The notes below the pieces were generated by a model, which worked only from the letters and a program-made list of their open reading frames with translations, did not search any database and was not told the origin of the DNA. The position numbers were made by a program, and so were the translations under genes. Shown in pieces: positions 17,457 to 36,433 of a DNA stretch of 64,000 nt (positions are counted from its first letter, which is position 1; each line of letters opens with the position of its first letter). This stretch comes from Flavobacterium pectinovorum. Its GTDB lineage: Bacteria; Bacteroidota; Bacteroidia; Flavobacteriales; Flavobacteriaceae. Where the stretch lies: positions 372,937 through 436,936 of the forward strand of contig NZ_RCZH01000003.1 of assembly GCF_006438875.1 (NCBI RefSeq), given 5' to 3'.

Positions 17457-18328
17457 TTATTTAATTGCCTGCTGATTCTGAAACTCTTCGATCGTTAAGT
17501 TTCCGAGTGCAGAATGTCTTCTGCAGGTGTTGTAAAAGTTCTCTATATAATCGGTTATTGATTTTTCTGCTTTCTCTTTAGTCTTATATTTATTTTGGTA
17601 TACCAGTTCTACCTTTAATGTCTTGAAGAAGCTTTCTGCTATCGCGTTATCATAGCAGTTTCCTTTTCGGCTCATGCTTTGGGTTATTTTATTTGTGGCT
17701 AATAAAGCAATAAACTCACGGCAGGCATATTGCTTTCCTTGGTCTGAGTGAAGAGTAGTTCCTGATTGTTCTGCAATGGACGATTTAAAAGAGCTTTCGT
17801 TAAAGAGGCGATGCTGGTATCTTTTGCGCTCATTGTTTCGCTGATTGACCAACCGATCACTTTACGGTCAAAAAGGTCTATCACCACAGTGAGATAGATC
17901 CAGCCTTCATCTGTTTCGATGTAGGTTATATCAGAAACCCAGATTTCGTTTCTTCTGGCTGCCTTAAAAATCTGTTCTAATCTGTTTTCTGCTGATCTGT
18001 TATTACGGGGTGGGCTTGTAGTCTTTTTATATTTAGATTTTGCAATGCTTCTTAGATGGTTTTCCTTCATAATCTGCCCGACAAATTTTCTGGAAACTTT
18101 TATCCCGATGGAATCTAATTCTTTAGCAATTCTCGGGCTTCCGTATCGGCTTTGGCTCCAGTGGTAAATTCTTATAATTTCTTTTATTATATGGGCTTTC
18201 CGCACTGACTTTGCAGTGGGTGTTCTTTTCCTCCATCGAAAGAAACTGCTTTTGTGAATCTGAAAAATCCGGCACATCTTCTCGACAGGAAATATTTCAG
18301 CATTTTCTCTGATGAATTCATATTTCAC
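17457..18328 (-). pseudogene. IS3-family transposase orfB, frameshifted
   Basis: This is the catalytic subunit of an IS3-group element, with an integrase-core (DDE) domain: VSDITYIETDEGW with the first Asp, HSDQGKQY with the second and AESFFKTLKVEL with the Glu. It starts at a GTG (18328) that overlaps the orfA stop as GTGA, normal for IS3. A single-base deletion near 17750 breaks the frame. The 5' part reads NNQELLF and then runs out of frame, whereas HSDQG continues in the next frame; adding one base restores the motif. The enzyme is therefore inactive unless this is a sequencing error. Confidence 0.9.
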
Positions 18329-21984: not shown

Positions 21985-22052
21985 AAAAGCCGAGAAATCT
22001 ATATTTTCCGGCTTTTAATTTTTCTTAGTAGCGGGAACAGTACTCGAACCTG
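21985..22052 (-). repeat. tRNA 3'-end remnant with its terminator, copy 4
   Basis: Read on the minus strand, 22052-22027 gives a T arm (ACAGG, loop TTCGAGT, ACTGT, with one mismatch) and an acceptor 3' strand TCCCGCT. A hairpin (21985-21998 pairing with 22003-22016) and T tract follow. The rest of the tRNA is absent, so it is the 3' scar of an integration rather than a working gene. It is the best preserved of the copies in this zone. Confidence 0.65.
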
Positions 22053-22092
22053 TTAATCAGAAAAAAGAACGAAAATAAAATGCTTATTCATA

Positions 22093-22175
22093 TTCGAAAC
22101 TAGACTTCTTTAACCTTGATTTAGCTGGTTTTTCATTTTCCAAATACTGATGTGCTGCGATTTTGCCACAATTCT
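22093..22175 (+). repeat. Attachment-like unit, copy 2
   Basis: This unit runs from TTCGAAA at 22093, about 54 bases on, to TGCTGCGATTTTGCCACAATTCT (22153-22175). It starts about 40 bases after the tRNA 3'-end remnant. The stretch 21679-22225 holds only the scars listed here. Confidence 0.6.
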
Positions 22176-22225
22176 AAGACAAGTAATTACTATAACATTT
22201 TTGATGTAGTAATGGAGAAACCATT

Positions 22226-22471
22226 TTGGAATCATTAAAAAATTACTTAATCAAAATTAAAAACTATGCTGTTATTTCTATTGCTACACGAGTATTTGCA
22301 ATTCTAATGCTTTTGGGCTATTTTATTTCAACTATATCATTAACCAATGAAAAACTTGTCTCCTTAAGTTTTATTTCTCTTGTTATTCCTGTTCAAATTT
22401 ACTTATTGCACCGAGTTTGGGTTAAAAGAAAAAACAGAATAAATAAGATGTTTCAAAGGCTCAAAGAATAA
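22226..22471 (+). CDS. Hypothetical membrane protein, 81 aa
   Basis: I do not recognise this protein. It starts at a TTG codon (no in-frame ATG nearby) and has two predicted membrane helices (about 13-35 and 45-62) with a basic, cytoplasm-like tail (RVWVKRKNRINKMFQRLKE). It is a lone small gene between an attachment-like unit and the IS6-like element. The uncertain start and lack of relatives keep confidence moderate. Confidence 0.45.
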   Translation: MESLKNYLIKIKNYAVISIATRVFAILMLLGYFISTISLTNEKLVSLSFISLVIPVQIYLLHRVWVKRKNRINKMFQRLKE

Positions 22472-22498
22472 ACTAATAGTCGCTTAGATCGCAAATAA

Positions 22499-23094
22499 GG
22501 TTCTGTCGCATCTGGGAATAACTTTTATCTTTAGAATTTTAAACCGATCAAAAAATTAATACTAAAGGTAATTGCTATCCAAAACAAATAATTCTTCAGT
22601 CAGTATATTTCAAATTAAGATTTACACTTAGTTACCGTGATGTTGAAGAAATAATGAAGATTATAGGAGTGCTTGTGGATCATGCCACGATTCAGCGCTG
22701 GGTTTATAAGTTTGCACCTTTGATTGAATCAGAGATGAAGAAGAGAAAAGTCAGAGTGGGGGCGAGGTGGAGATTGGATGAAACCTATATCAAAGTAAAA
22801 GGTATTTGGTGTTATTTATACAGGGCGGTAGATAAATTAGGCAATACAAATATCTCAACAATATTGTAGAGCAGGACCATCGTTTTATAAAATGCGTATC
22901 CAAAATGGACTAGGTTTTAAAAGTTTTGAATCGGCCAAACGAACATTGAGCGGAATTGAAGTTGTGCATATGCTCAGAAAGAATCAGATGGTTAGATCAG
23001 GGATAACTATGTTTAAATCATTCTGTAAATTGGCCGGCTAACTTTTAAATTACCTAAATTCTTATATTTGATTCTGACAGATACGACGGAACCG
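22499..23094 (+). mobile_element. IS6-like insertion sequence, internally deleted
   Basis: The ends GGTTCTGTCGCATCTG (22499-22514) and CAGATACGACGGAACC (23079-23094) are inverted repeats matching at 14 of 16 positions, typical of IS6-family elements. The whole is only 596 bases, some 200 shorter than a complete element. No exact 8-base target duplication is seen (GCAAATAA on the left, GCAAAATG on the right). Confidence 0.85.
22555..23041 (+). pseudogene. IS6-family transposase, deleted and frameshifted
   Basis: The N-terminal part (QSVYFKLRFTLSYRDVEEIM, the first catalytic Asp in RWRLDETYIKVKG, YLYRAVDKLGN) joins directly to the C-terminal part (KYLNNIVEQDHRFIK...IQNGLGFKSFESAKRTL). The central region with the second catalytic residue is missing. 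One further base is missing after VEQDHRFIK, where TGG has become TG. It cannot make a working transposase, but the intact-looking ends could still be mobilised in trans. Confidence 0.9.
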
Positions 23095-23324
23095 CAAAAT
23101 GTTTTATTGGATAATATTTTGGGATAAAAGTAAAATTAATATTTGTTTTTTTTAAAAAACAGTACGAATATTTTTTCTTTTTATGATATTTTGCTTTTCT
23201 TTGATCAAAAATATCTTGCTTTTATTCTTGGATATATGCTAAGTCGACGTAGCAGTTTAAAGGAAAATTTTTCGGTATTTTTTTGACAATTTAAAATCAC
23301 TATTAATAACAAAAAAAAGTAACT

Positions 23325-23492
23325 ATGAAATTAGAATCATTAGGATTGGAAAAATTCAGAAAAGAAGAATTAAGCAATTTAGCAGCAATAAAAGGTGGTA
23401 CCCAAGTGGAACCAGCTTATGAAACAGGATGTGCAGATGCGCCGGATTGTTGTACAGGCGCAGATTGTTCTGATGACGAACCAATGGAGTAA
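23325..23492 (+). CDS. RiPP precursor peptide, double-glycine leader, 55 aa
   Basis: The frame ATG 23325 to TAA 23492 encodes a leader, MKLESLGLEKFRKEELSNLA then AIKGG (residues 1-25), of the GG-type seen in Bacteroidota natural-product precursors. A 30-residue core follows (TQVEPAYETGCADAPDCC, then TGADCSDDEPME). The core has four Cys, three Thr and many Asp/Glu, but no Arg or Lys. It stands first in an operon with an ATP-grasp and a SPASM-domain maturase, matching grasp-with-spasm systems. ATP-grasp enzymes of this type can join side-chain carboxylates to Thr/Ser/Lys or related groups, so Thr/Cys and Asp/Glu are likely modification sites. A hairpin follows immediately. Confidence 0.85.
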   Translation: MKLESLGLEKFRKEELSNLAAIKGGTQVEPAYETGCADAPDCCTGADCSDDEPME

Positions 23493-23496
23493 TAAT

Positions 23497-23529
23497 AAAA
23501 TGTCAGCGATTTTAAATCGCTGACATTTT
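23497..23529 (+). terminator. Hairpin between precursor and maturation genes
   Basis: A 16-base perfect stem (AAAATGTCAGCGATTT and complement, one-base centre) ends in T residues, 5 bases after the precursor stop and 16 before the next start. It can act as a leaky terminator that gives more precursor than enzyme mRNA, or as a 3' stabiliser. Confidence 0.75.
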
Positions 23530-23544
23530 TAAAAATAATAATTT

Positions 23545-24429
23545 ATGAAATACATTATACTGTTTCTTTTTATTTTTAAAAGTTCACTTTCGATTTCACA
23601 ATGCAAAACAGTAAATATGTATGCGCAACTTAGTAAAGCTAAAAGTGATAGTGAAAAATTAAATATATATATTGAAATGAATAAAAGTGGTTTGGATAAT
23701 GTTTTTCCATCCATTATTGAATATGCTTTTAAGTTGAAAAAAAATAAAATTGGCAACAAATATTTAAAAAAAGGTATTAAAAAAGGTTTAACAATTGACG
23801 GAGACTATACAAATTATATACCTGGTGAAATATTAGAAAAAGTTAAAAAAAAGTATTCAAAATGGAGAAGTGTTTTTTACAGTACTTATGATGAAGAGAT
23901 GTATAATAAAGTATTGTATTTAGTCAATACAGATCAATATCTGGCAAAAGAAGATTTTTATGGTGGAAGAAAACAGCAATATCCTATCAGAAATAAAGTT
24001 TTTCAGAATAATTTAACGCAATTACGTTATTATTTAATTGCTAAGAATAAAGGGCTATTACCTCATAGTAATCAGATAGGGAATTTGACAACGGCGATTT
24101 CATTAATGTTTATGCATCGTACATGCAATGATTCGATTGATGAGGTAAATTTTAATTTTTTTGAGCCAAGACTAAAAGAAGAGATTTGTTCAGGAAAAAC
24201 ATATTCGCCTTATACTTATTTACAATTAGTAGATAATATGCAGTCAATAATGGAAAAAGGAGTTCCTCAGGTGTATGGACATTTCAGGAATTATAAAACA
24301 AAAAAAATTCATCTGTTAAAATATCCTGCAAAAGTAGATAGTCTTAGAGCTTCAATTGGTCTTCCGTCTTTAAGGGAGTACGCAAAAGAAAAGGGATTTT
24401 TACTTCCGGATAATTATATTGAACAATGA
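23545..24429 (+). CDS. Secreted protein of the RiPP operon, unknown function, 294 aa
   Basis: I do not recognise a named family with confidence. It has a signal peptide (MKYIILFLFIFKSSLSISQ) and a helical, lysine-rich N-terminal half. The C-terminal half has a spaced pattern LRYYLIAKNKGLLPHSNQIG, MHRTCNDS and GVPQVYGHFRNY. The histidines, HR, DS and GHFR could bind metal or ligand, and the order recalls the DUF6624-type proteins found with peptide clusters, though I cannot confirm it. It overlaps the ATP-grasp gene by 4 bases (ATGA), so it is a bona fide operon member. An immunity, peptide-processing or peptide-binding role is plausible. Confidence 0.75.
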   Translation: MKYIILFLFIFKSSLSISQCKTVNMYAQLSKAKSDSEKLNIYIEMNKSGLDNVFPSIIEYAFKLKKNKIGNKYLKKGIKKGLTIDGDYTNYIPGEILEKVKKKYSKWRSVFYSTYDEEMYNKVLYLVNTDQYLAKEDFYGGRKQQYPIRNKVFQNNLTQLRYYLIAKNKGLLPHSNQIGNLTTAISLMFMHRTCNDSIDEVNFNFFEPRLKEEICSGKTYSPYTYLQLVDNMQSIMEKGVPQVYGHFRNYKTKKIHLLKYPAKVDSLRASIGLPSLREYAKEKGFLLPDNYIEQ

Positions 24430-25379
24430 TTTTAATTCAAAGTATTTCGCAAGATTATTCAACAAGTGTAGTTATTCAATGGCTATGTGATACAAATGAA
24501 GATTTTATACGCTTAAATAATAAAAGTTTTATAGATCAGATTACTTTTTCAGAAAATATTTTTCGAATTAAAATTAATGACAAAATTATTGATTTAAGTC
24601 AATTTAAAAGCTATTGGTTTAGAAGAGGAAGTTTTGATTTTGAAAGCAAATTGAATCAAAACGTCGAAATGAAAATTCCCATTGAGGGATATCTAAAAGG
24701 AGAAAATTTGATTATAAAAGAAGCTATAGATCATTACCTTCTAAAGAATGTTAAAAGTATCGGGAATTATAAAACTTCACAAAATAATAAAATAATTGCA
24801 TGTGAGGTTGCAAAAAATATGGGATTTAAGATTCCTGATTTTATAATTACGACAGAAAAAATTGAGCTTTTAAAGTTTTATAAAAAGCATCCTCAGATTA
24901 TTTCTAAAAGTTTATATGGATTACCAGGATTTTTAGCGAATAATGTTGATTATTCTGCCAAAACAAGAATTATAGAACTAAGTGATATTAAAGATTGCAC
25001 GGATAATTTTGGTGTTTCATTATTTCAACAATATGTAGAAAAGAAAATCGAATTGCGAGTTTTCTTTTTGAACGATAAATTTTATCCATCTGCGATTTTT
25101 TCTCAAAATGATGTCCAGACAAAAATTGACTTTAGAAATTACAATAAAGACAAGCCTAATAGGGTTGTGCCCTACAAACTACCTGATGACGTGATCGAAA
25201 AATTAAAAAAAATCAATCAGGAACTAGCACTAAATACAGGATCATATGATTTAATTTTGACTCCAAAAAATGAATACTACTTTCTTGAAGTAAATCCTAT
25301 TGGTCAATTTGCCCAAGTATCATTGCCGTGTAATTATTATTTAGAAAAAGAAATAGCAAAAGAACTTTCAAATGCATAA
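24426..25379 (+). CDS. gwsG: ATP-grasp peptide maturase (grasp-with-spasm system)
   Basis: This 317-residue enzyme follows the RiPP ATP-grasp plan. The N-terminal region contains KSYWFRRGSFDF at about residues 61-72, and the central ATP-grasp fold has ISKSLYGLPGFLANN and LFQQYVEKKIELRVFF. The C-terminal metal/ATP site includes YDLILTPKNEYYFLEVNPIG at about 278-297. It would activate carboxylates in the precursor with ATP and form ester or amide crosslinks in the cytoplasm. It overlaps both neighbours by a few bases and precedes the SPASM maturase, the defining pair of grasp-with-spasm clusters in flavobacteria. Confidence 0.9.
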   Translation: MILIQSISQDYSTSVVIQWLCDTNEDFIRLNNKSFIDQITFSENIFRIKINDKIIDLSQFKSYWFRRGSFDFESKLNQNVEMKIPIEGYLKGENLIIKEAIDHYLLKNVKSIGNYKTSQNNKIIACEVAKNMGFKIPDFIITTEKIELLKFYKKHPQIISKSLYGLPGFLANNVDYSAKTRIIELSDIKDCTDNFGVSLFQQYVEKKIELRVFFLNDKFYPSAIFSQNDVQTKIDFRNYNKDKPNRVVPYKLPDDVIEKLKKINQELALNTGSYDLILTPKNEYYFLEVNPIGQFAQVSLPCNYYLEKEIAKELSNA

Positions 25380-25560
25380 AATAAAAGAACTCTTAAAGTC
25401 CGATACTACCAAAATGCAGTTGCCATTTAATTCCGTTTTTTTTGTTTCTGAAGAAGTAAAGAAAAAAAAGCATATAAGTATAGAAAAGTACAATACAAAC
25501 TCATTTATACCTTATTCATGTTATAAACCTATTATGCTATATTTTGAAAACGAAAAATAG
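25372..25560 (+). CDS. Small protein between the two RiPP maturases, 62 aa
   Basis: The start overlaps the ATP-grasp stop as ATGCATAA, and its end overlaps the TTG start of the SPASM gene by 17 bases, so it is translated within a coupled chain. It is basic and hydrophilic (VSEEVKKKKHISIEKY) with a single Cys near the end (PYSCYKPIMLYFENEK) and no signal peptide or span. I know no family for it. It may be a docking or recognition factor for the maturases, or a second substrate-like peptide. Confidence 0.65.
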   Translation: MHKIKELLKSDTTKMQLPFNSVFFVSEEVKKKKHISIEKYNTNSFIPYSCYKPIMLYFENEK

Positions 25561-26617
25561 ATATTACAAATTATTTGCAGATTGTTTTGCTGTAAAAGGA
25601 TATTCTCGAAGTGTAATATGTGATATAACAAGAAAAAAATTTGATTTTATTCCAAATAGTCTTTATGAAATAATTATCGATGAAGTCATTGATATCTTCA
25701 GCTATCATAATATTTTAGATGATGAATCCACAGAAATTTTTAATGAGTACATTGACTTTCTCTTGAGGGAAGAATATATATATGAAATTTTAGATATTTC
25801 TGAAAAAGACAATTATCCTGCTATTGATTTGAAATTTGATTATCCTGCAAAAATTTCAAACGCAGTTATAGACTATAATGGGGATTATGATTTATTTGTT
25901 AAGAGTATTTGTCAGTTAGAACTAATGAATTGTAATTTCTTAATAGTGAGATTTTTGATTCCAGTTAAAATTATTGAAATTGAAAACATTTTGCTTTTGA
26001 TTAACGATTCGATAATTTTTTCAATTGATATAATTGTTGATTATAGCATTGATTATAATGAAGAGTGTATGCTTGAGATGATGCTTAAGTACCCAAGAAT
26101 TAATATAGTTACAATATTTAGCAGCCCGACAACCAGCCATAATAAAACTATTTTAAACAACGGAATGGGGCATTTAATTTTTTCTCAGAAAGAGTATAAC
26201 AAGGATGAAATTTTAAAAATTAAAGGTGAGAATAATTTCGTAATAAATATTAAGCTATTTACAGAATCTTATAACTACAATAATTTCTTTCATAAAAAAG
26301 TTTTTATTTCTGAAATCGGAGATGTTAAGAATTCCCCATTTGCGAAAATTATTTTTGGGAACATACAAAATAATAGTCTTGAAAATATAATCAATCATAC
26401 AGATTTTAAAAAAATATGGTATGTAAAAAAAGATTTTATAGAGGTTTGCAAAGATTGCGAGTTTAGATATATGTGTGTTGATAATAGAAATCCTGTACAA
26501 AAGAAAGTAAATGAGTGGTATTTTGAAGATGAATGTCATTATAATCCTTATATTAATAAATGGAATTTTGATGAACAGAATCTCACTTTTCCTGCTTTTA
26601 ACACGACTCTTTTATAA
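25544..26617 (+). CDS. gwsS: SPASM-domain peptide maturase (grasp-with-spasm system)
   Basis: The only suitable start is TTG at 25544, giving MKTKNRYYKLFADCFAVKGY, which has the usual opening of this family; the nearby ATG at 25534 belongs to the 62-aa frame. The 357-residue protein ends with a SPASM-like cysteine cluster, CKDCEFRYMC (CX2CX5C) followed by a Cys in EDECHYN, expected to bind an auxiliary iron-sulfur cluster. The N-terminal half lacks the CX3CX2C signature of radical SAM enzymes, so radical chemistry should not be assumed. It is the last gene of the operon; no ABC exporter or C39 peptidase follows. Confidence 0.88.
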   Translation: MKTKNRYYKLFADCFAVKGYSRSVICDITRKKFDFIPNSLYEIIIDEVIDIFSYHNILDDESTEIFNEYIDFLLREEYIYEILDISEKDNYPAIDLKFDYPAKISNAVIDYNGDYDLFVKSICQLELMNCNFLIVRFLIPVKIIEIENILLLINDSIIFSIDIIVDYSIDYNEECMLEMMLKYPRINIVTIFSSPTTSHNKTILNNGMGHLIFSQKEYNKDEILKIKGENNFVINIKLFTESYNYNNFFHKKVFISEIGDVKNSPFAKIIFGNIQNNSLENIINHTDFKKIWYVKKDFIEVCKDCEFRYMCVDNRNPVQKKVNEWYFEDECHYNPYINKWNFDEQNLTFPAFNTTLL

Positions 26618-26742
26618 AATAGGTTTTATAAAAAGAATTCTGGTAAATATGAGAGTTAAGGAGAAGATTTAAATTAGTTTTATAAAAAGGAAAAACTTTT
26701 GTTGGAGGGGAAGTGCCAAGTTTAATTTTTTTTTAGAGAGTT

Positions 26743-26769
26743 GCATAACAGGAACAGGACTCGAACCTT
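26743..26769 (-). repeat. tRNA 3'-end remnant, copy 5
   Basis: The plus-strand text GCATAACAGGAACAGGACTCGAACCTT parallels AGTAGCGGGAACAGTACTCGAACCTG at 22027. On the minus strand it is a T loop (TTCGAGT) with part of its stem and a diverged acceptor end. No terminator hairpin is kept here. Confidence 0.5.
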
Positions 26770-26825
26770 CTAGAACAAAAAAACAAGTAAAATAAAAAGG
26801 GAGTTACATAAGGTTTTTTAATATA

Positions 26826-26909
26826 TTCGAACCTAAACTCGTCAGCACCTTATTTTGTTGACTTTCTAGTTTTGAAAAACACCGTGTGCCACGATTTTGC
26901 CACAAATCT
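26826..26909 (+). repeat. Attachment-like unit, copy 3
   Basis: TTCGAACCTAAACTC, then 55 bases later the paired repeat TGCCACGATTTTGCCACAAATCT (26887-26909). It lies about 60 bases after the tRNA-like remnant, the same order as copies 4 and 2 at 22027 and 22093. Confidence 0.65.
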
Positions 26910-26941
26910 CCGATTGCTAAATATTATAACAGTTTTTAATG

Positions 26942-27028
26942 TTAGTAATGTTTCGAACTTAAGGTTTCAAGTGATTGTTTAACAATGTTTTAAACTGTCT
27001 TATGAAATTGATGCACCGATTCTGCACC
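26942..27028 (+). repeat. Attachment-like unit, copy 4
   Basis: This 87-base block is collinear with 17339-17425. It starts TTAGTAATGTTTCGAACTT and ends TGCACCGATTCTGCACC. The two copies bracket the IS3, SPFH, IS6 and RiPP region as direct repeats about 9.6 kb apart. Confidence 0.65.
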
Positions 27029-27092
27029 TAAATTCAATTATGTCTATTTCAATATTTTATTCTTAAAAATGTTTTTACTAAGTTTCTAAAAG

Positions 27093-27177
27093 TTTCGAAC
27101 CTAAACTCCTTAGGTCTTGATTTTGCTGGATTCTTAATTGTTAAAAATAGTTTGTGCCACGATTCTGCCACAAAACT
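27093..27177 (+). repeat. Attachment-like unit, copy 5
   Basis: TTTCGAACCTAAACTCCTTA, then after 55 bases TGCCACGATTCTGCCACAAAACT (27155-27177), 22 of 23 bases identical to the orphan at 18750. Confidence 0.65.
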
Positions 27178-27573
27178 CAAAGTATCGTTTCTGCCCTTAG
27201 TAATGATCTATTAATTTCTATCTTATTTGTAGTTTAAAAGCATTTTATATTACTCAATAGGACAAAACTAATTTCTGGAAGTGAAATTCGCAATATGCAT
27301 TTCTGTATTCAAAGTCTATTCTTAAAAAATGAACTTTATTTATGTCCTTTATTTCTATTTTTCTAAGTCTCATTCTTGTAAATATTTGCAGTCTTTATGT
27401 CCCGTAGAGTGACCTCTACGTTACAAATTCCAAATCATTTTATGCAAGATTTAAAGAAATCGGTTTATTTTTAAGTTAATTTGTAAGAAAATTATTTGTT
27501 ATTTTGCATTGATAGCGGTTTGTATGTATCGTAAGGGTTAAATGTTAAAAAGATTAATAATATAAACATTTAA

Positions 27574-27600
27574 TTTTTATCAAAGAGCCTTTGATAAAAA
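27574..27600. terminator. Perfect hairpin TTTTTATCAAAG / CTTTGATAAAAA
   Basis: A 12-base stem with loop AGC has a T run on one side and an A run on the other, so it could terminate in either direction. It lies 137 bases beyond the 3' end of the minus-strand 146-aa gene, which it may serve. Confidence 0.55.
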
Positions 27601-27647
27601 ACAAAGTCAAATCAATTTTGAAGGTAGAGTTTATTTTTAGATAAAGA

Positions 27648-27689
27648 TTAAATTATAGTTCTTAAATTATAGCTCTTAGATTATATTGA
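27648..27689 (+). repeat. 14-base tandem repeat, three copies
   Basis: TTAAATTATAGTTC, TTAAATTATAGCTC and a weaker TTAGATTATATTGA follow each other without gaps. It may be replication slippage or a binding-site array. Confidence 0.6.
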
Positions 27690-27736
27690 TCAAAATTCAA
27701 GTTTTAATAAGTACTGTTTTTTTTGCATTTTAATAA

Positions 27737-28177
27737 TTATTCTAAAACGTTTTTATCTATTATCAAAGTAAAAAGTTCTCCACTACCTTTTGGAATTGGA
27801 GTTTTAATTTTCTTTATAACATTTACCCTAATTGTATAAGAAATTACTTTTTGTACATTTTGTGAGCTAATCTCTTCAATGTTTATTTTTATTATCTCAA
27901 AACCATTTATTTTTTGCGAAATAGAAATCTGTTCCTTTATAAAATCTAATTTGTTTAAAGATACAGACATCATTTTCTTCATTTGTATTATTGTCATTTC
28001 TTTTGTTAAAACGCCTAAAAGTTCTGCTTGAAACCTTATTGCATCTAGTTTATCAGCTACTTGAATAATTAATGGTAGTTTATATTGGTTTTCAGTTTTT
28101 GGATTTATAAAACGAAACTCTAAGTAAAAAGATTTCAAAGAGGTCTCAGGAATTTTTTTGAAGGTTTTTATAATCAT
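27737..28177 (-). CDS. Hypothetical protein, 146 aa
   Basis: I do not recognise this family. It looks soluble and mixed alpha/beta, with beta-strand stretches at both ends (SFYLEFRFINPKTENQY; VQKVISYTIRVNVIKKIK) and a helical middle (ADKLDAIRFQAELLGVLTKE). It begins divergently from the Qat operon across a 393-base AT-rich gap. It may be a regulator or structural accessory of the neighbouring cargo, but nothing in the sequence proves this. Confidence 0.6.
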   Translation of the reverse strand: MIIKTFKKIPETSLKSFYLEFRFINPKTENQYKLPLIIQVADKLDAIRFQAELLGVLTKEMTIIQMKKMMSVSLNKLDFIKEQISISQKINGFEIIKINIEEISSQNVQKVISYTIRVNVIKKIKTPIPKGSGELFTLIIDKNVLE

Positions 28178-28570
28178 ATACGGAATTTACTTTTTTGCTA
28201 ATATAATAAATTACCGTTTTCTAAAATAATTAATATTCAACCAAATATCTAAATTTATTTACCAATATAGAACTACATCTTAAATTGTTTTTTTCAATTA
28301 TCTAACTATAAAAATCGTAAAATCGAATTATTAAATTATTGCGATATGTTTTGTAATAAAAATATAAAAAGCAGTATAAATACTGTTGTCATTTATTTTG
28401 GTTTAATATACCTTCCGATCAAATTTAGATATGATGATTTATTGTAGGATTATATAATATTTAATTTTAACGATTTTATAATTCATTATGGAAAACCGTA
28501 ATTTCTTCTGGATTGAATAACATACTTTTACGAAAATTATTTATAAAATGTTTTAATAAAAATTATATAA
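28178..28570. other. AT-rich divergent promoter region of the defence island
   Basis: This 393-base stretch has long A and T runs and no gene that I can support. It must hold the promoter of the Qat operon and of the divergent 146-aa gene. I could not assign an exact TAnnTTTG element with suitable spacing. Confidence 0.4.
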
Positions 28571-30469
28571 ATGTGGGCAGATAACGAAACATCAGAGGAT
28601 TTATTAGGGTTTAAAGTACATGCAGATCTATTGGTGAATATCATTAAAGATGAATCGATTTTGCCAATTACAATTGGTGTTTTTGGTGACTGGGGAAGCG
28701 GAAAATCTAGCATATTACAAATAGTAAAAGAAGAGTTTGATAAAGACGAGGATAAAGAGTCGCTTTGTATATACTTTAACGGATGGACTTTTGAGGGTTA
28801 TGATGATGCTAAAGCGGCATTACTCAATTCAATTCTTAAAGAACTGGAAGATAACAAAAAAATTACTGCCGAAATAAAAGATGCAGTAAAAGAGAAAGCG
28901 AAAAAACTATGGAAATCTATTGATTGGATGCGAGGCGCGGGGATGGTTTTAAAAAATGTTGCATTACCAGCGGTTTCAGCATATTTTACTGGAGGGGTGA
29001 GCTTAGTGCCCGCATCTATTCAGATAATTTCACAATGGAGTGATTCTCCCGAAAAGATAATTGAAAAGCTTCAATCAAAAGAAGGGAAAGAGATTTATGA
29101 ATCATTTATAAAGCAAAAAAAAGAAGGGAATAATAGCTCGACAAATGCAATAGCGGATCTTAGAAAGGATTTCTATGATTTATTAGCCTCTACTGGTTTT
29201 AAAAGATTAGTGGTTATAATTGATGATCTTGATAGATGTAGTCCTGAAAGAATTATAGAGAATCTTGAAGCTATTAAACTTTTCCTCAACGTGCCAAAAA
29301 CTGCATTTATTATTGGAGCTGATCCCAGAATTGTGAAATATGCAATCGAACATAAATACAAAAGTAACAAAGAAATTGAAGAAGATAATAACAGAATTGT
29401 TATTGATTATTTGGAAAAATTAATTCAGCTTCCCTATTCTCTTCCAAGACTTTCAGAATCAGAAGTTGAAACTTACATTTCAATGTTAATCTGTAAAAAA
29501 GAGGTTGGCGATACGAAATTTAAAAATGTGCTTGATGAATTTAAAAAGTATAGAATAACTAACAAATATTCTGCATTTGGATTGTCAAACTTCGAAAAGA
29601 TTTTGGAAGCCCAAGAATTTGGAAAAGTTAAGGACAATGTAATTACAATTCCTTCATTAGTGCCCTTAATTACAAATAGTTTGTATGGAAATCCCCGACA
29701 GATTAAACGTTTTCTAAATACTTATACTATCAGAAAAAGGCTGGCAGAAGTTGCGTCGTTAGTAAGCTTTAATGACGCCGTTCTTGCAAAAATGATGATA
29801 CTTGAATATTCTGAACCTAAGTTATTCAAGAAGTTATTTGAATGGCAAATAATTCAAGATGGAGTGCCAAAAGAAATAACCAATATAGAGGCTCTATGCA
29901 AAGACAAAGGGATTGAAGACGTTATTTCAGAAATTAAAGATTCTGATTTCAAAGAATGGAGTAAACCTAAAATAATAAAATGGTTTCAAATAGAACCTTT
30001 ATTAACAGGAATTGATTTAAGGGATTATTATTGGATTGCTCGCGATAAGTTAGAAAATTCTATTACTTCAACAAGTATGATTCCGCCAGTAGTAAGGTCA
30101 TTATTTAATGAGTTATTACCGGATAATATGACGGCAGCAGTTACAAAATCTTTACTATCTGAAAAATTTCAACCTTTTAGTGATATTGAGAAAGATGCGT
30201 TTTTCAATCTTTTATCTTCAAATTTAAAAAGAAATCCTCAGCAAAAAAGGTTGTATGACATTTTCAATGCAATGACAGAAGATAAAATAGAAAATACAGT
30301 TTATCAATATATGGAAACTCTTAAAATAATCAGCGTATCAGATATTGAACCTGCGGTTGCTACGAGATTAGCAGACTTTAAATCAGAAACTGAAATAGGA
30401 ACTTTTTTGAATGATTATTTCAAAGATGGAAAAACAAGAGCAAGTAAGGCGTTTAATCTAAAAAAATAA
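28571..30469 (+). CDS. qatA: QatA-like KAP-family P-loop NTPase
   Basis: This 632-residue KAP NTPase has Walker A GDWGSGKS at residues 39-46 and Walker B VVIIDDLDRC with the acidic pair at about 218-219. A typical insert with hydrophobic character lies between them (about 120-155). The later GNPRQIKRFLNTY box at about 375-387 is the sensor-like region of KAP and STAND-type ATPases. It is the first of four tightly packed genes in the order KAP NTPase, unknown, QueC-like, TatD-like, which is the QatABCD anti-phage system described from defence-island screens. Its role is presumably to sense or act through ATP hydrolysis; the mechanism of Qat is unsettled. Confidence 0.88.
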   Translation: MWADNETSEDLLGFKVHADLLVNIIKDESILPITIGVFGDWGSGKSSILQIVKEEFDKDEDKESLCIYFNGWTFEGYDDAKAALLNSILKELEDNKKITAEIKDAVKEKAKKLWKSIDWMRGAGMVLKNVALPAVSAYFTGGVSLVPASIQIISQWSDSPEKIIEKLQSKEGKEIYESFIKQKKEGNNSSTNAIADLRKDFYDLLASTGFKRLVVIIDDLDRCSPERIIENLEAIKLFLNVPKTAFIIGADPRIVKYAIEHKYKSNKEIEEDNNRIVIDYLEKLIQLPYSLPRLSESEVETYISMLICKKEVGDTKFKNVLDEFKKYRITNKYSAFGLSNFEKILEAQEFGKVKDNVITIPSLVPLITNSLYGNPRQIKRFLNTYTIRKRLAEVASLVSFNDAVLAKMMILEYSEPKLFKKLFEWQIIQDGVPKEITNIEALCKDKGIEDVISEIKDSDFKEWSKPKIIKWFQIEPLLTGIDLRDYYWIARDKLENSITSTSMIPPVVRSLFNELLPDNMTAAVTKSLLSEKFQPFSDIEKDAFFNLLSSNLKRNPQQKRLYDIFNAMTEDKIENTVYQYMETLKIISVSDIEPAVATRLADFKSETEIGTFLNDYFKDGKTRASKAFNLKK

Positions 30470-30471
30470 AA

Positions 30472-31212
30472 ATGGGAACATCTAAGTCATTTTCTGATGT
30501 AAAACACACGATGGTTCCGAATTGGGGGCCACTTAGCTCTTCGCTTACCTCAAATTGCGATTCTTCTAGTCTTCCTGCACCAAAACTACAGAATATAATG
30601 CGAAATTTTGTTAAGGCATTGGGGGGAGCATCGGCAGGGGGACGCGGTGGCTCAAAAGCTGGAGGAAGAAGTAGTATCAAGACTGCAAAGAAAATTGGAG
30701 GAGTTTTTTCAACTTTTATCAGTTCAGGTAATAATATTAGAGAAACTCTTGCATCTACTGGTTTAACAGATATTGATAATAAAACGGTTGGTGATGTAAT
30801 TAATCACCTGATCGAATATTGTTCTGGGAGTGCTACATCAATTGATGATAATGCGGCAAAAGAAGCTACAAGACTATTATTGGAAGAACTAATTGGACAA
30901 GCTGAATCCATTGACAGAGTACAAACTCTATTAGAAGAAAGCTTCACGACTAGTAGATTGGAAGATGTAATAATTAAATATTTTGGGTATTACATTAATG
31001 AGCTTTTATCAAAGTGGTTTTATGAGAATTTAATAAAAAATAAGAATGAAAGTGATTGTAATAATCTTTTCAGTCAAATAAAAAATTTCATAGTGGAAAG
31101 AGTTGCCGATATGAACAAAAAGAATCCATTGCAAAATATTGATTGGAGTTCCCAAGAAGCAGATAGACTTGTAAAAAATATCCAACAAGATGTATTAACC
31201 GTATTTGAATAG
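30472..31212 (+). CDS. qatB: QatB-like protein
   Basis: This 246-residue protein has the features of the second Qat gene. The N-terminus contains TMVPNWGPLSSS, and a Gly-rich, basic linker follows at about residues 50-66 (GGASAGGRGGSKAGGR). The rest is a helical domain (ATRLLLEELIGQAESIDRVQ) with an acidic-aromatic C-terminus. It starts 2 bases after the qatA stop and ends 2 bases before qatC. No catalytic motif is visible. The Gly-rich stretch suggests a flexible tether or a site handled by the QueC-like partner, which is speculation. Confidence 0.82.
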   Translation: MGTSKSFSDVKHTMVPNWGPLSSSLTSNCDSSSLPAPKLQNIMRNFVKALGGASAGGRGGSKAGGRSSIKTAKKIGGVFSTFISSGNNIRETLASTGLTDIDNKTVGDVINHLIEYCSGSATSIDDNAAKEATRLLLEELIGQAESIDRVQTLLEESFTTSRLEDVIIKYFGYYINELLSKWFYENLIKNKNESDCNNLFSQIKNFIVERVADMNKKNPLQNIDWSSQEADRLVKNIQQDVLTVFE

Positions 31213-31214
31213 TT

Positions 31215-32570
31215 ATGATAGTAAATATAGTTATTGACGATGCTCATTATGGCAAGTTTTCAGACTTGCATCTTTGTTACATAGATAACGGAGTAAACAG
31301 AAGGATTCCATTATCTTTTTTAGGTTATGAAAAAGTTTTTGATTTCACGACTGATTTTGTCTCTGTAAAATTTGATTTTTTTCTGATATCTGCGATTGTT
31401 TATGGAGTCGATAATTTACTTAATCGGGCTATTTATTCAAATGATGGTTGGACAAGAGATATAGAAGTAGAGTTTCCTGTGAATAACTTAGCTGTTTGGA
31501 ACGGTAAAGAAGATAAACTAAAACAAACTTTAGACTTCTTAACAGGAGATAATTGGCAGATTTCATTCCGAGAAATAGAAGATGTTGATTTATTTCAACC
31601 ACGTACAAATAGAAGGAAAGTTCCAAATTATGATAAAAATCTTATCAAATCTGTAAGTTTATTCTCAGGCGGATTGGATTCTTTAATTGGAGTTATTGAT
31701 GAATTGGAAAAGCTTAGTAATGGTGAAAGAATACTTTTGGTTTCTCATTTTGATTCAAAATCTCCAGGACCAAATGGAGATCAAAGAAAGTTATTAAGGC
31801 ATTTAATGACCCAATACCCAAATAAGATATATTGGGTACAATCGAAATTGGCATTATCAAGAAAAGACATTGATGGTAATAGCGTAAGTATTGAGAAGAA
31901 TTATCGAAGTCGTTCACTTTTTTTTATTGGTTTAGGTATTTATCTGTCATCTACTGATGAATTAATAATTCCCGAAAACGGTACAATTTCAATCAATTAT
32001 CCTCTCACGCCATCTAGAGTAAGTTCTTTAAGTACAAGAACAACGCATCCTTATGTTTTAAAAAATATTCAAGAATTACTTGTAGAATTGAGGTTATCGA
32101 CAGTAATACATAATCCCTATACTTTTAAGACAAAAGGAGAAATGTTTATTGAATGTACAAACCAAATATTTTTAAAAAGTATTTATACAGATTCGGTTTC
32201 TTGTGGTAAAAGAGGGTTTAGACAATTTCATTTTGACAATCCTAATGAGAATCATAGTTGTGGAAGATGCATGCCTTGTGTTTATAGGCGAGCGGCATTG
32301 AATAAAGCTGGCATGGATAATGAAGATCAGTATGGAAACTTTATTACAAAAGTTTCATCTTTAGGGAATAATGATTTACCAGCACTATTCAGTTACTTGA
32401 AAAAAAACATATCTTTGGAGAAAATGAAAAGAGATTTGTTAGTTAATGGAAATATAGAGATTAGTCTTCTTGAAGAATATGCTAAAATGGTGTTAAGGTC
32501 AAAACTAGAAGTTAAGCAATTATTTAGCGATAAAGGGAGTAATTTTGTAAAATCGGAATTGAATTTGTAA
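31215..32570 (+). CDS. qatC: QatC-like protein (QueC-type ATP-pyrophosphatase)
   Basis: This 451-residue protein has a PP-loop SGGLDS at about residues 150-155, as in the 7-cyano-7-deazaguanine synthase QueC. A zinc-type cysteine set (CGKRG, then HSCGRCMPCVYRR) sits at about 333-358. QueC enzymes adenylate a carboxylate and form a nitrile. QatC homologues carry a longer N-terminal region, about 140 residues here (YGKFSDLHLCYIDNGV...). It overlaps the TatD-like gene by one base. In the Qat setting it may modify a protein or nucleotide rather than make queuosine precursors; no other queuosine genes are nearby. Confidence 0.87.
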   Translation: MIVNIVIDDAHYGKFSDLHLCYIDNGVNRRIPLSFLGYEKVFDFTTDFVSVKFDFFLISAIVYGVDNLLNRAIYSNDGWTRDIEVEFPVNNLAVWNGKEDKLKQTLDFLTGDNWQISFREIEDVDLFQPRTNRRKVPNYDKNLIKSVSLFSGGLDSLIGVIDELEKLSNGERILLVSHFDSKSPGPNGDQRKLLRHLMTQYPNKIYWVQSKLALSRKDIDGNSVSIEKNYRSRSLFFIGLGIYLSSTDELIIPENGTISINYPLTPSRVSSLSTRTTHPYVLKNIQELLVELRLSTVIHNPYTFKTKGEMFIECTNQIFLKSIYTDSVSCGKRGFRQFHFDNPNENHSCGRCMPCVYRRAALNKAGMDNEDQYGNFITKVSSLGNNDLPALFSYLKKNISLEKMKRDLLVNGNIEISLLEEYAKMVLRSKLEVKQLFSDKGSNFVKSELNL

Positions 32571-33301
32571 TGAATGTTGATACCCATTGCCACATAGATT
32601 TATATAATAATCCAAAACAAATTTTGCAAGAATGCATAAAATCTGATATTACGGTTTTAGCAATGACTAATCTTCCAAGTCATTTTGAAATGGGATATCC
32701 ACATTTTCAATCATTAAGAAAGATAAGATTAGCTTTAGGAATGCATCCCTTAATGGCAGATTCACACCAAAAAGAGTTTAAATTATTTCTTACTAATATT
32801 GATAAAACATCATATATTGGAGAAGTTGGGCTAGACTTTTCGAGAGAAGGTATATCTACAAAAACTATACAAATCGAGACGTTTACTAAAATACTAAACA
32901 TTGTTTCTGGTAAAAAAAAGATACTAAGTATCCATTCTAGAAAGGCAGAAAAAGAAGTTTTAGAACTTTTAATAAAATATGATATTACAGCAGCTATCTT
33001 TCATTGGTATTCAGGCGAGTTAGGTATAATTGACTCTATTGTGAGCAGCGGGTATTATTTTTCTATTAATCCAGCAATGATTAAATCTTCTGCCGGAAGG
33101 AAAATTATTTCTAAAATACCTAAAAATTTTATTTTGACTGAAACAGATGGACCTTTTATAAATGAAAAGAATTTGCCATTGAAACCGGGAGAAACATCTT
33201 CTGTTGTTAATTTTTTAGCAGAAGAATGGAAAGTTACTAAACAAGAAGTAGAAAAAATTATAGCATCAAATTTTTTGCGAATAATTAGTTATTTGAAGTA
33301 G
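32570..33301 (+). CDS. qatD: QatD-like TatD-family metal-dependent hydrolase
   Basis: This 243-residue TatD-type TIM-barrel protein has the metal ligands in THCHID (His6 and His8), the Glu in YIGEVGLDFSR, the His in LSIHSRKAEKEV, the HWYSG histidine and the TETDGPF aspartate. Such proteins are nucleases or phosphoesterases. It is the last gene of the qat operon, and the gene order completes QatABCD. About 110 AT-rich bases separate it from the Argonaute gene. Confidence 0.88.
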   Translation: MNVDTHCHIDLYNNPKQILQECIKSDITVLAMTNLPSHFEMGYPHFQSLRKIRLALGMHPLMADSHQKEFKLFLTNIDKTSYIGEVGLDFSREGISTKTIQIETFTKILNIVSGKKKILSIHSRKAEKEVLELLIKYDITAAIFHWYSGELGIIDSIVSSGYYFSINPAMIKSSAGRKIISKIPKNFILTETDGPFINEKNLPLKPGETSSVVNFLAEEWKVTKQEVEKIIASNFLRIISYLK

Positions 33302-33410: not shown

Positions 33411-35405
33411 ATGAGCGGACTATTTTTAAATTTTTATCAAGTAGATATTCCTGCAAAAGCAGTTTTAATTGATTCAATTCAATATAGTAAATATGCTTCG
33501 AAGGAAGCTTTCTTTGCGTTAAAAGATAGTTTTCCTGATATTTTCTTCTACCGTGATGACGAGAATCTTTTAATTTGGAAAAAGAACAATAAAGCCCACC
33601 TTCCTGAAAATGTCTATCCAATAAATATTGACTTATCAGAGAAAACTAAAGTGCTCTCAAAAATATTAGAAAGGTCAATTATTGACTTCATAGAGCCGAA
33701 AGGGTACAAAATTTTCAAGAATAAACATTCAAATTGTTGGGAAATTATTTCTCCAAAAGACATCCTTAATAGTAGCATTGAAGGTTTGACAGTCAACAGA
33801 ATTGTTAGTTTTTTACCCTGTTTTTTTTTCAAAGAAAGCAAATTGCTTTTAGGCTTTTCATTATCGACATCACTTAAAAATTCATTTACTTGGAGTAAGA
33901 CAGAATTTGAAAAATACGGAATTGATATTAAGGGTTTGAAGGGCGATGAAGAACGAATTTATGCAAACAGACAGTCACTAAAAAGATTCTTAGAGACTAA
34001 AGGAGCGACGACCGAATATGATCAGATCATCAATAATGAAAACAGGAACGCTAAAGTATTTGCAGTAATAGATAATTTTTATAAATGGCTTGAAAAGAAC
34101 AAATCGCAAATTCAATTGCCTTTTGGCTTGGAAATAAATTCAATTTCTAAAAAGTACCTGCCATTTGAGGATGAATTAATAAAATCTGAAATTATTGGTA
34201 AGCCACAGCGATACTTTTACAGCAACCGTAAAAATACACAAGGCTTACAATATTATGATCAAATGGTTAAGGCATATCAGCCTTATTCACTTGAACTTTA
34301 TCAAAATAAGCAAATCAATATTGGTATTATTTGCCCATCAGAATACCAAGGCGAAACAGAAGGGTTCGTCAGAAAAACGGAGGCAAAGTTGAAAGAAGTA
34401 TTTCATTTCAACGCCTTAAACATTCACTTCAAAACAATTAACAGCAAAGATTTAGAAAGCTATAAAGAAGTTCTTTATGACGAAACTTTACTTAATTGTG
34501 ATTTAGTTTATGTTATTGTAAATGAAGCACAAGAAAAATTAAGCCCGAGCAATTCACCTTACTACGTTTGCAAAGCAAAGTTTATTGGCAATGGAATTCC
34601 AACGCAGGATATTCAGATTGAAACTATCAGACAAAATTTGAATGCTTTTACGATGACTAATATTGCTCTTAACTCGTATGCAAAACTTGGCGGTACGGCT
34701 TGGACAATTGAAAAGGAAGAAAAACTTAAAGACGAACTGGTTATTGGAATTGGATCTACACTTTCAGAAAACGGTCAGTTTGTTTTAGGAATAGCGCAAG
34801 TATTTCATAATGATGGGAGATATATGACGGGAGATTGTTCACCCCTTTCTTCGTTCGATAATTATGCTGAGAATTTAGAAAACCACCTTTTTAAAACATT
34901 ACAGCCCTTGGTTGAGGAAATGAGTAAGTCGGGTACATTCCGTTTGATTTTTCATTTGTTCAAATCGGCCAGCGAAGAATATGAAATAAAAGCCATTAAC
35001 AAATTAAAAGAAAGGTTTACGAATTTTAATTTTGAGTTTGCGTTGGTTCATTTGGCATATGGTCATAATTTCCGATTGTATAACAATGATGGAAATAGCG
35101 ACATCAGACAAGGAACATATGTTCAACTAAGTAAGCATTCGGCATTGCTTCATTTTGTTGGAAAAAGTGACTTGCCTTTAAAAATTGATTTAGACAAACG
35201 TTCAACCTTTACAAGTTTATTCTACTTAGCAAAACAAGTCTATTGGTTTTCCCATTTATCCCATAGAAGCTATATGCCTTCTAAAAGGACAGTAACTATT
35301 ATGTACCCTTCCTTGATGGCTAAAATGACTGAAGAACTAAAAAAAGTAGAAGGATGGGATTATGAAAGATTAAAAGCAGTAAGTGAAAAATTATGGTTTA
35401 TTTAA
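33411..35405 (+). CDS. Long prokaryotic Argonaute, catalytically inactive PIWI
   Basis: This 664-residue Argonaute has a recognisable MID domain with the guide 5'-end pocket SPYYVCKAKFIGNGIPTQ at about 382-399, and a C-terminal PIWI domain of about 435-660. The first catalytic aspartate (normally in GIDxS) is glycine here (VIGIGST, about 443-449). The second (normally after HRxG or HRD) is missing in IFHLFKSASEE near 514, and the last motif reads VTIMYPSLMA. The DEDX tetrad is therefore absent and target cutting is unlikely. It overlaps a PD-(D/E)XK nuclease gene by 13 bases, the layout of long-B Argonautes that recruit a separate effector (BPAN type). Confidence 0.87.
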   Translation: MSGLFLNFYQVDIPAKAVLIDSIQYSKYASKEAFFALKDSFPDIFFYRDDENLLIWKKNNKAHLPENVYPINIDLSEKTKVLSKILERSIIDFIEPKGYKIFKNKHSNCWEIISPKDILNSSIEGLTVNRIVSFLPCFFFKESKLLLGFSLSTSLKNSFTWSKTEFEKYGIDIKGLKGDEERIYANRQSLKRFLETKGATTEYDQIINNENRNAKVFAVIDNFYKWLEKNKSQIQLPFGLEINSISKKYLPFEDELIKSEIIGKPQRYFYSNRKNTQGLQYYDQMVKAYQPYSLELYQNKQINIGIICPSEYQGETEGFVRKTEAKLKEVFHFNALNIHFKTINSKDLESYKEVLYDETLLNCDLVYVIVNEAQEKLSPSNSPYYVCKAKFIGNGIPTQDIQIETIRQNLNAFTMTNIALNSYAKLGGTAWTIEKEEKLKDELVIGIGSTLSENGQFVLGIAQVFHNDGRYMTGDCSPLSSFDNYAENLENHLFKTLQPLVEEMSKSGTFRLIFHLFKSASEEYEIKAINKLKERFTNFNFEFALVHLAYGHNFRLYNNDGNSDIRQGTYVQLSKHSALLHFVGKSDLPLKIDLDKRSTFTSLFYLAKQVYWFSHLSHRSYMPSKRTVTIMYPSLMAKMTEELKKVEGWDYERLKAVSEKLWFI

Positions 35406-36433
35406 GAGAAATATTAAAACATAATAGGGAAAAGCTGATTCAATACAAAAACATTGAGCTTGCTGCCTATTGGCATATCCGATCTTTTGAAGATTTACCT
35501 AATCAAACTTTTGAATTGAGCCCAGAAGAAGAAATTGCGCTGGTTGGTTATAAAAAAGAGTCTGCTGAAATTTCCAAAGTTATAGCATTAGTTTCTAAGC
35601 CTCCGATTAAGGGAATAAGCGCAACTTCCAATATATACAAATTTTCCGGGCTATATTTATGCGCAAAAAATCAACTTCGTGAACAAATGATTGAAAAGTA
35701 TCAGCAAGGTGATTTAAAACAGAAATACTTTTTGAGCAAAATAGAACCGTCTTTACAAGTTCAATTATCAAAAGAAGTTTTGGGACTTCATGATAATTCT
35801 TTAGCAGTTCTAATAAATACAGTATTCGATATAAATACAGTAAAAGAAACAGAATTAAATATAGCATTACAAAGTGCCACATTAGGAGCTGACATTGATG
35901 TTCAATTACAAATCCTATTGGAGGATATTGAAAACGCTTTGCTTCAAACAAAGTTTGTGAACAAGAGCGCTGACGAAATGGTTCGTGATGTTCTGAATAA
36001 TTTCAGTAATGCAATTCAAAAAATAATTAGTGGTAGAAGGTTAAATCATCCTAATTTTATAATTGAGGATGAATATGATGTTCAAGATATTTTGTATGTA
36101 ATACTTAAATCACTGTTTCCAAATCTCCGGGATGAAGATCCAATTTCAAAAGTAGGTGGGAAATCAACAAAAATAGACTTAATACTTCGTGAAGAAAAAA
36201 TTTTAATTGAGGTAAAAATGATCAAAGTTAAAGATTCTAACGAAACTCATTTCATTGAGCAGCTTAAGGTTGATTTTGAATCTTACCATCAATGTAAATG
36301 GATGAGAAAACTATTTTGTTTTGTCTACGATCCCTACAAGAAAACTCGCGACATTTCAAACTTCAATGACCTGAATGGAGAAAGAACAAAGGGGGAAAAC
36401 AATTTTAACGTAGAAGTAATTGTAGTGCACTAG
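35393..36433 (+). CDS. Argonaute-associated PD-(D/E)XK nuclease
   Basis: This 346-residue protein has a helical N-terminal region of about 220 residues that I cannot assign. Its C-terminal nuclease domain shows KIDLILREEKILIEVKM, where the D-x10-ExK arrangement (about Asp262, Glu273 and Lys275) is the PD-(D/E)XK active site. It lies in the same operon as the inactive Argonaute, overlapping it by 13 bases. The likely model is that guide-directed target binding by the Argonaute unleashes nuclease activity and causes abortive infection. That rests on known long-B systems and has not been tested here. Confidence 0.85.
   Translation: MVYLREILKHNREKLIQYKNIELAAYWHIRSFEDLPNQTFELSPEEEIALVGYKKESAEISKVIALVSKPPIKGISATSNIYKFSGLYLCAKNQLREQMIEKYQQGDLKQKYFLSKIEPSLQVQLSKEVLGLHDNSLAVLINTVFDINTVKETELNIALQSATLGADIDVQLQILLEDIENALLQTKFVNKSADEMVRDVLNNFSNAIQKIISGRRLNHPNFIIEDEYDVQDILYVILKSLFPNLRDEDPISKVGGKSTKIDLILREEKILIEVKMIKVKDSNETHFIEQLKVDFESYHQCKWMRKLFCFVYDPYKKTRDISNFNDLNGERTKGENNFNVEVIVVH

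Follow-up and report, generated by a model that had tools for sequence, protein, structure and literature searches.

A 64,000-nucleotide stretch of the Flavobacterium pectinovorum genome (assembly GCF_006438875.1, contig NZ_RCZH01000003.1, positions 372,937–436,936 of the forward strand; hereafter the window) carries a grasp-with-spasm cluster for a ribosomally synthesized and post-translationally modified peptide (RiPP), in which a precursor gene precedes those of an ATP-grasp synthetase, GwsG, and a SPASM protein, GwsS. GwsS has been described in print as a radical S-adenosylmethionine (SAM) enzyme (Makarova et al., 2022, PMC8939145), a description contradicted by the GwsS sequences, in all 82 of which no radical site is recognizable. 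The explanation favored here, held as a whole with moderate confidence, is that GwsS acts as a non-radical, leader-binding partner of GwsG within an ester-ring graspetide pathway.

The 82 GwsS frames, each of at least 305 residues, come from 81 stretches and include that of the window; shorter frames were omitted as fragments or split frames (e.g., L182, L209 and pieces in L128 and L115). Their sources are overlapping draws of 199, 299, 296, 395 and 398 genomes, the window's own genome and one genome-contig scan, which contributed only two loci. GwsS itself led to 68 of the frames; the remaining 14 were reached through GwsG or, in one case, by way of the window. Only part of the listed places was fetched, mostly the higher-scoring ones, so that fractions given for GwsS are not population frequencies.

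In radical SAM enzymes, the cluster loop sits between strand 1 and helix 1 of the barrel. In alignment to a model of the window's protein, this link spans 0–6 residues in all 82 GwsS; a CX3CX2C motif after strand 1 is present in none of them, the window's included, and no 14-residue stretch of any barrel holds three cysteines. The same motif was found in 14 of 18 other proteins with a weak TIGR04193 match, which served as a control; for some of the remaining four, the chosen frame is possibly wrong or cut. Not one of 127 barrel positions is conserved at 85% or above; such positions number 22 among 118 in the SPASM part and two in the N-terminal part, where G19 and D27 are invariant. PF04055 falls outside the 25 Pfam families most matched by 61 GwsS, and thus matches at most one of them.

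An AlphaFold2 model of the window's GwsS, computed from an alignment of 61 sequences, has a mean predicted local distance difference test score (pLDDT) of 91.5 and a predicted template modeling score (pTM) of 0.86. Its N-terminal domain (residues 6–84), composed mostly of strands followed by three helices, matches leader-bound TbiB1 (5v1v) with a Z score of 8.8, 79 of 88 residues aligned at 2.9 Å. The next matches, at Z 6.8–7.5, are the N-terminal parts of MccB and of heterocyclases such as TruD, which we take to be RiPP recognition elements (RREs). The N terminus of GwsS is accordingly modeled as a PqqD-like winged-helix RRE fold, with a putative role in leader binding. Residues 97–335 have a partial radical SAM barrel fold in the predicted model and match the radical SAM/SPASM enzymes PqqE, SuiB, anSME and BtrN at Z 10–12; TigE and 5wgg match nearly the whole model, also at Z 10–12. 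Foldseek hits at E ≤ 0.001 are limited to 5why (3.8e-6) and anSMEcpe 4k36 (3.4e-4), and a search of GwsS against PDB sequences gave no match up to E 10.

These results bear directly on the alternative that GwsS is a catalytic radical SAM/SPASM maturase, forming thioether or other crosslinks at core cysteines before or after GwsG closes its rings. The published radical SAM label and thioether proposal for the SPASM protein (PMC8939145), the four cysteines of the window's core and the fold of residues 97–335 speak for it, as do matches of 37/61 and 35/61 GwsS to AhbD and NirJ2, true radical SAM families in NCBIfam, at E ≤ 0.1. Nevertheless, with the motif and its loop missing from every member, a barrel without conserved positions, PF04055 nearly absent, and the radical SAM family matches of the window's GwsS (the sole member detailed) confined to residues 253–335 of the SPASM part, a catalytic GwsS appears unlikely.

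The SPASM domain has been retained unevenly. All cysteine ligands of cluster II are kept in 82/82 GwsS; those of cluster I come as a full set of four in 56 and are missing altogether from 26, among them the window's protein, with no intermediates (the assignment of cysteines to the two clusters follows that of anSME). The cluster I positions of the window's protein, 224, 248, 264 and 314, are occupied by L, F, S and N. One-cluster sequences form a clear grouping, set apart from the rest by a branch supported at 95/92 when the four cysteine columns are included; on a quick tree built without these columns the pattern takes two changes, and on a tree of 74 GwsG it takes six. A single origin of the one-cluster form thus depends on including the cysteine columns. 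Among the loci examined, 9 of 66 genomes or contigs harbor both forms, the window's genome being one of them: its second grasp-with-spasm locus (L120, contig C34, 75000–91000) has a two-cluster GwsS and an 85-residue precursor candidate. In genome G1144, the loci examined include three separate one-cluster ones (L186, L190 and L193) and none of the two-cluster form.

The invariance of the cluster II cysteines, in the best conserved part of GwsS, could also mean that the protein is an enzyme working without radicals, in which the SPASM Fe-S site transfers electrons or carries out redox chemistry on the cysteines. Four cysteine ligands would, however, leave no open iron, the barrel has no conserved residues and the one-cluster forms would have no electron relay, making this possibility an improbable one.

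Curated-family scores and gene order (Table 1) place the cluster, at the level of sequence, in the grasp-with-spasm system of graspetide-type RiPPs, in agreement with a preliminary description of this DNA: GwsG passes TIGR04192 and GwsS passes TIGR04193, a family matched by 61/61 GwsS (best E 3.7e-139). Sequence relatives of GwsG in the PDB are the graspetide synthetases 7m4s (AMdnB), 7mgv (CdnC), 5ig8 and 5ig9, with E values of 4.5e-20 to 4.5e-17; the last two, ATP-grasp ligases, are MdnB and MdnC. All 82 gwsS genes are preceded on their own strand by a GwsG-type gene, at most 400 nucleotides away in 76.

The preliminary description had the order of precursor, ATP-grasp and SPASM genes right, but took each to overlap its neighbor and overlooked two genes, encoding proteins of 294 and 62 residues. 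The head-to-tail overlap links four genes, those of the 294-residue protein, GwsG, the 62-residue protein and GwsS; the 62-residue gene, overlapping both neighbors, is all that parts gwsG from gwsS. The precursor gene overlaps nothing and is separated from the 294-residue gene by a 52-nucleotide gap that contains a hairpin.

Table 1. Features of the grasp-with-spasm cluster, in window coordinates.
Feature	Position	Strand	Basis or remark
Precursor gene, 55 residues	23325..23492	+	Open reading frame list; leader likeness to related gws loci
Hairpin, 15-pair stem and 3-nucleotide loop	23497..23529	+	Between precursor and 294-residue gene
294-residue protein, DUF6624-like C-terminal half	23545..24429	+	PF20329 22.5 bits, below cut-off 27
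gwsG, ATP-grasp graspetide synthetase, 317 residues	24426..25379	+	TIGR04192 280.3 bits, cut-off 230
LPL-type small protein, 62 residues, directly 5' of gwsS	25372..25560	+	LPF ... YNT ... YKPI
gwsS, 357 residues	25544..26617	+	TIGR04193 215.9 bits, cut-off 175
GwsS RRE-like domain (predicted), residues 6–84	25559–25795	+	AlphaFold2 model and structure matches
GwsS degenerate radical SAM barrel (predicted), residues 97–223	25832–26212	+	Model and structure matches
GwsS SPASM domain, residues 224–341	26213–26566	+	Model; PF13186 25.0 bits, cut-off 21.5
Four retained cluster II cysteine codons (C302, C305, C311, C331)	26447..26536	+	Conservation among 82 GwsS

Both overlooked genes have likely counterparts in the graspetide loci that Makarova et al. 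(2022) assign to branch 5, which combine varied GG precursors, often with conserved cysteines, with genes for an ATP-grasp enzyme and a SPASM protein; almost all of these loci also have a "cluster 23" protein, and a small LPL protein directly precedes the SPASM gene (PMC8939145). The 294-residue protein, which by eye has a signal-peptide-like start, shares 42% identity across 72 residues with an L113 protein that passes PF20329, and is probably the counterpart of the cluster 23 proteins, provided that DUF6624 and cluster 23 are equivalent, as we infer. The product of a 306-residue gene at the same place in L186 has no detectable relationship to it. A small open reading frame occupies the LPL position directly before gwsS for 63/82 GwsS; the consensus of 58 such proteins (alignment A2) reads LP ... 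YQT ... KPI. An AlphaFold2 model of the LPL fold (pLDDT 67, pTM 0.19) supports no conclusion.

The precursor consists of a 25-residue leader, MKLESLGLEKFRKEELSNLAAIKGG, with GG at its end (23325–23399), and a 30-residue core (23400–23489) with four Cys, three Thr, one Ser, nine Asp/Glu and neither Lys nor Arg; the composition given in the preliminary description is confirmed from the 55-residue frame. Precursor candidates elsewhere were required to start with ATG and to have GG or GA with hydrophobic residues at −4 and −7. This rule yielded 63 candidates in 47/81 stretches, among them a few plainly spurious ones (L185 at 73, L228 at 1430, L184 at 883 and L204 at 1022). Composition was compared with 60 other candidate cores of at least 20 residues, shorter cores alone being dropped. 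None has an Asp/Glu fraction as high as that of the window's core, none has as high a Cys fraction, three are free of Lys and Arg, and 48 contain at least one Cys.

Relative to the GG, the leader has Ile at −4, Leu at −7, Glu at −12 and Phe at −15; the leader patterns reported for C39 peptidases place a hydrophobic residue at each of −4, −7 and −12, that of ComA adding Phe at −15 (PMC10885120). In a shuffled-alignment test against 61 other candidates (300 shuffles), the window's leader resembles those of related clusters, although the test is loose: the plainly spurious L228 candidate also scored 0/300. For the core, none of the same 61 is a convincing homologue; the best, in L130, has a z of 4.0 with 1/300 shuffles as good, uncorrected for 61 tries. 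Two acidic cores with three and four Cys, from L122 and L186, were entertained as homologues and set aside; they rank outside the top ten, and what they share with the window's core is composition only. The preliminary description would have counted against itself the lack of a conserved homologue of the 55-residue frame in related clusters; of that frame, the leader resembles its counterparts and the core does not convincingly do so. Rapid change of the core is reported to be usual in branch 5 (PMC8939145). Of the RiPP precursor models that the same description had proposed to search, TIGR04149 matches at 16 bits, below its curated cut-off of 25. The number of core cysteines ranges from 0 to 4 with either GwsS type, and a link between the two was dropped on account of this overlap. 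Elsewhere, L236 has three near-identical tandem precursor copies (frames starting at 3072, 3340 and 3609 in minus-strand frame coordinates).

The composition of the core constrains its chemistry. With no Lys, Lys lactams are ruled out and, if GwsG acts on the core, only Thr, Ser, Tyr or Cys can supply the nucleophiles. The preliminary description proposed that GwsG takes the cysteines as native nucleophiles, giving thioester links. Cysteines do outnumber Ser in this Lys-free core, precursors of branch 5 are reported to have conserved cysteines as a rule (PMC8939145), and ester-forming ATP-grasp enzymes can make thioesters when given a substituted nucleophile (PMC12291112). Yet three Thr and one Ser are on offer as alternative nucleophiles, the conserved and presumably linked pair in one branch 5 subtree is Thr/Ser with Asp/Glu (PMC8939145), and cysteines are common in candidate cores in general. 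Cysteine thioesters in the product are possible, with nothing here to favor them; as an account of the cluster, native thioester formation by GwsG is doubtful. Still less probable is the combination in which GwsS is an obligate radical-free Fe-S leader partner and GwsG joins native Cys thiols to Asp/Glu, producing a natural thioester graspetide.

Other graspetide synthetases are reported to read a Phhx(1,2)h leader motif that is absent from branch 5 precursors (PMC8939145); unlike the systems of AMdnB, CdnC, 5ig8 and 5ig9, the window's cluster has a leader without proline and hence without this motif. A precedent for partner-dependent graspetide synthesis is rosaritide, where the ATP-grasp enzyme MirB requires the co-encoded MirC, whose N-domain is weakly RRE-like (PMC13097080). 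MirC is PpiC/SurA-like and not a SPASM protein, and the dependence, inferred for GwsS, is proven for rosaritide. This precedent, the RRE-like domain, the missing radical site, the constant ATP-grasp neighbor and the leader without a proline-led motif together suggest that GwsS is the leader-holding partner.

In the pathway envisaged, the N-terminal RRE of GwsS would bind the precursor leader, and GwsS and the LPL protein would present the core to GwsG, with no radical chemistry carried out by GwsS and its remaining single SPASM [4Fe-4S] site playing a structural part. GwsG would activate Asp/Glu side chains with ATP and close ester rings with Thr/Ser of the core, as is expected from its family. 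The modified peptide would then be cut after the GG and leave the cell through a C39 ABC transporter whose gene lies outside the cluster; the likeliest candidates are the two on contigs C32 and C49, which resemble the exporters of related clusters; after this export in trans, the four core cysteines would form disulfides outside the cytoplasm.

Several points weigh against this reading. The barrel part of GwsS also matches TIM barrels to which it is unrelated, those of tryptophan synthase and dipeptide epimerase, at Z 6–7, the RRE match, at Z 7–9, is near the level where common folds score, and both assignments come from the predicted model of one member. The AhbD and NirJ2 matches tie many GwsS to true radical SAM families, non-standard ligation of a radical SAM cluster is formally possible as far as sequence goes, and the 56 two-cluster proteins suggest that cluster I is retained for a reason, which could be catalytic. 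The conserved cysteines of branch 5 precursors would be explained by a role in disulfides, but equally by enzymatic use. Dependence of GwsG on GwsS is argued by analogy, and the whole reading, leader binding by GwsS included, is built on sequence and a model.

The preliminary description regarded the lack of an exporter as anomalous. The absence itself stands: no exporter adjoins gwsG or gwsS, and no remnant turned up in 22001–28571 when 10 exporters from related loci served as tblastn queries. As an anomaly it mostly dissolves, because adjacency is the minority state and the genome offers exporters elsewhere. Counting inside the fetched stretches, which typically reach ~3 kb downstream, an exporter lies within 100 nucleotides downstream for 21/82 GwsS, anywhere downstream on the same strand for 30 and upstream for 2, leaving 61/82 with no adjacent exporter. 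The search for a C39 ABC exporter that the preliminary description called for succeeded, as the window's own genome has eight C39-domain places, seven of them in exporter-length frames of 718–736 residues outside the cluster. For all 26 exporters of at least 600 residues in the fetched stretches, the nearest of these seven, compared as cut frames of 623–648 residues, is the C32 frame (14) or the C49 frame (12), at 44–74% identity. The C49 exporter shares a lanthipeptide-like cluster with genes of the LanB and LanC types, and may therefore serve its own substrate. That locus (L145, contig C49, 54000–68000) is class I lanthipeptide-like, with separate Lant_dehydr_N and Lant_dehydr_C genes, a LanC-like protein and the C39 exporter; a TIGR04149 precursor above the cut-off is encoded nearby. 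The literature points both ways: against treating the absence as ordinary, an NHLM-type transporter is reported to co-occur at high frequency with the SPASM-carrying graspetide group 14 (Carter et al., 2026, PMC13097080), and the C39 transporter is listed as the commonest family over all graspetide loci, although ATP-grasp loci are also said not to encode the C39 peptidase as a rule (PMC8939145).

Combined with the adjoining insertion sequences, that frequency of transporters in group 14 could be taken to mean that the cluster is a decaying relic, which has lost its exporter and one cluster of its GwsS. An IS6-type transposase fragment does lie near the cluster: a 71-residue frame (22654–22869) scores 83 bits for an IS6-family transposase (cut-off 125) and is above the cut-off for DDE_Tnp_IS240. 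However, all five frames are open, four of them tightly overlapping, both enzymes exceed curated cut-offs, the loss of cluster I is common to 26/82 GwsS with no intermediates, most GwsS lack an adjacent exporter and this locus has no exporter remnant. Decay has little to recommend it.

A short frame at 22892–23041 is, by eye, the end of the same IS6-type transposase. Farther upstream, integrase-core and HTH_21 transposase pieces, which we take to be IS3-like, lie in two overlapping minus-strand frames (17457–18328). Downstream of gwsS, an imperfect 96-nucleotide direct repeat (26815–26910 and 27083–27178, 75% identity), whose copies share TCGAACCTAAACTC and GTGCCACGATT.TGCCACAAA, separates the cluster from defense genes; the repeats are possibly scars of integration. 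The defense genes comprise QatABCD (28571–33301, with QatB weak at 31 bits) and a long prokaryotic Argonaute (pAgo; 33411–35405, PADLOC pAgo 1021 bits), which overlaps a gene (35393–36433) matching pAgo-associated helical-REase models.

The hairpin that follows the precursor has a minimum free energy of −19 kcal/mol (z −7.3), with 0/200 shuffles as stable. The 70 nucleotides 3' of candidate precursors reach −15 kcal/mol or lower in 39/63 cases, vs 10/82 stretches after GwsS, in a comparison uncontrolled for base composition. The hairpin is a probable attenuator or terminator, which would probably hold the precursor transcript above that of the enzymes. No Rfam family matched at gathering scores, the 64-kb window contains no tRNA, and a sigma-70 scan gave no excess (20, the average over shuffles being 26.6).

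The cluster belongs to a known system. It is like grasp-with-spasm (TIGR04192/TIGR04193) and branch 5 loci (PMC8939145) in the GG precursor upstream of the ATP-grasp gene, the LPL gene before the SPASM gene and the variable, Cys-containing cores, and probably also in its auxiliary protein. It differs in having the most acidic and Cys-rich core of the 61 compared, one SPASM cluster site in GwsS instead of two, and no local transporter. Judged from its SPASM protein alone, it perhaps falls within graspetide group 14 (PMC13097080). What is new is the window's core and a one-cluster GwsS that, by sequence and model, is free of a radical site and bears an RRE.

That SPASM proteins can lose their radical site is already known, since NCBIfam includes pseudo-rSAM/SPASM families, TIGR04150 and TIGR04347, whose names mark them as lacking a working radical SAM site and which are matched by 8/61 (best E 2.5e-7) and 3/61 (best E 0.0022) GwsS, respectively. 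GwsS differs from these two, compared by name and match only, in its predicted RRE-like domain and ATP-grasp partner. The literature searched, with most subscription papers outside it, yielded no report of TIGR04193 proteins without the radical SAM motif, of their RRE-like domain or of the cluster I split; NCBI's own family texts may already record that the radical site is missing.

If GwsS proteins without a radical site do bind leaders, grasp-with-spasm would be a partner-dependent graspetide pathway. This would change both the products to look for, thioether chemistry having been proposed from the radical SAM label of GwsS (PMC8939145), and the genes that need to be co-expressed. The all-or-none split of 56 and 26 among 82 GwsS also provides a natural experiment on the function of SPASM auxiliary clusters where radical chemistry is absent.

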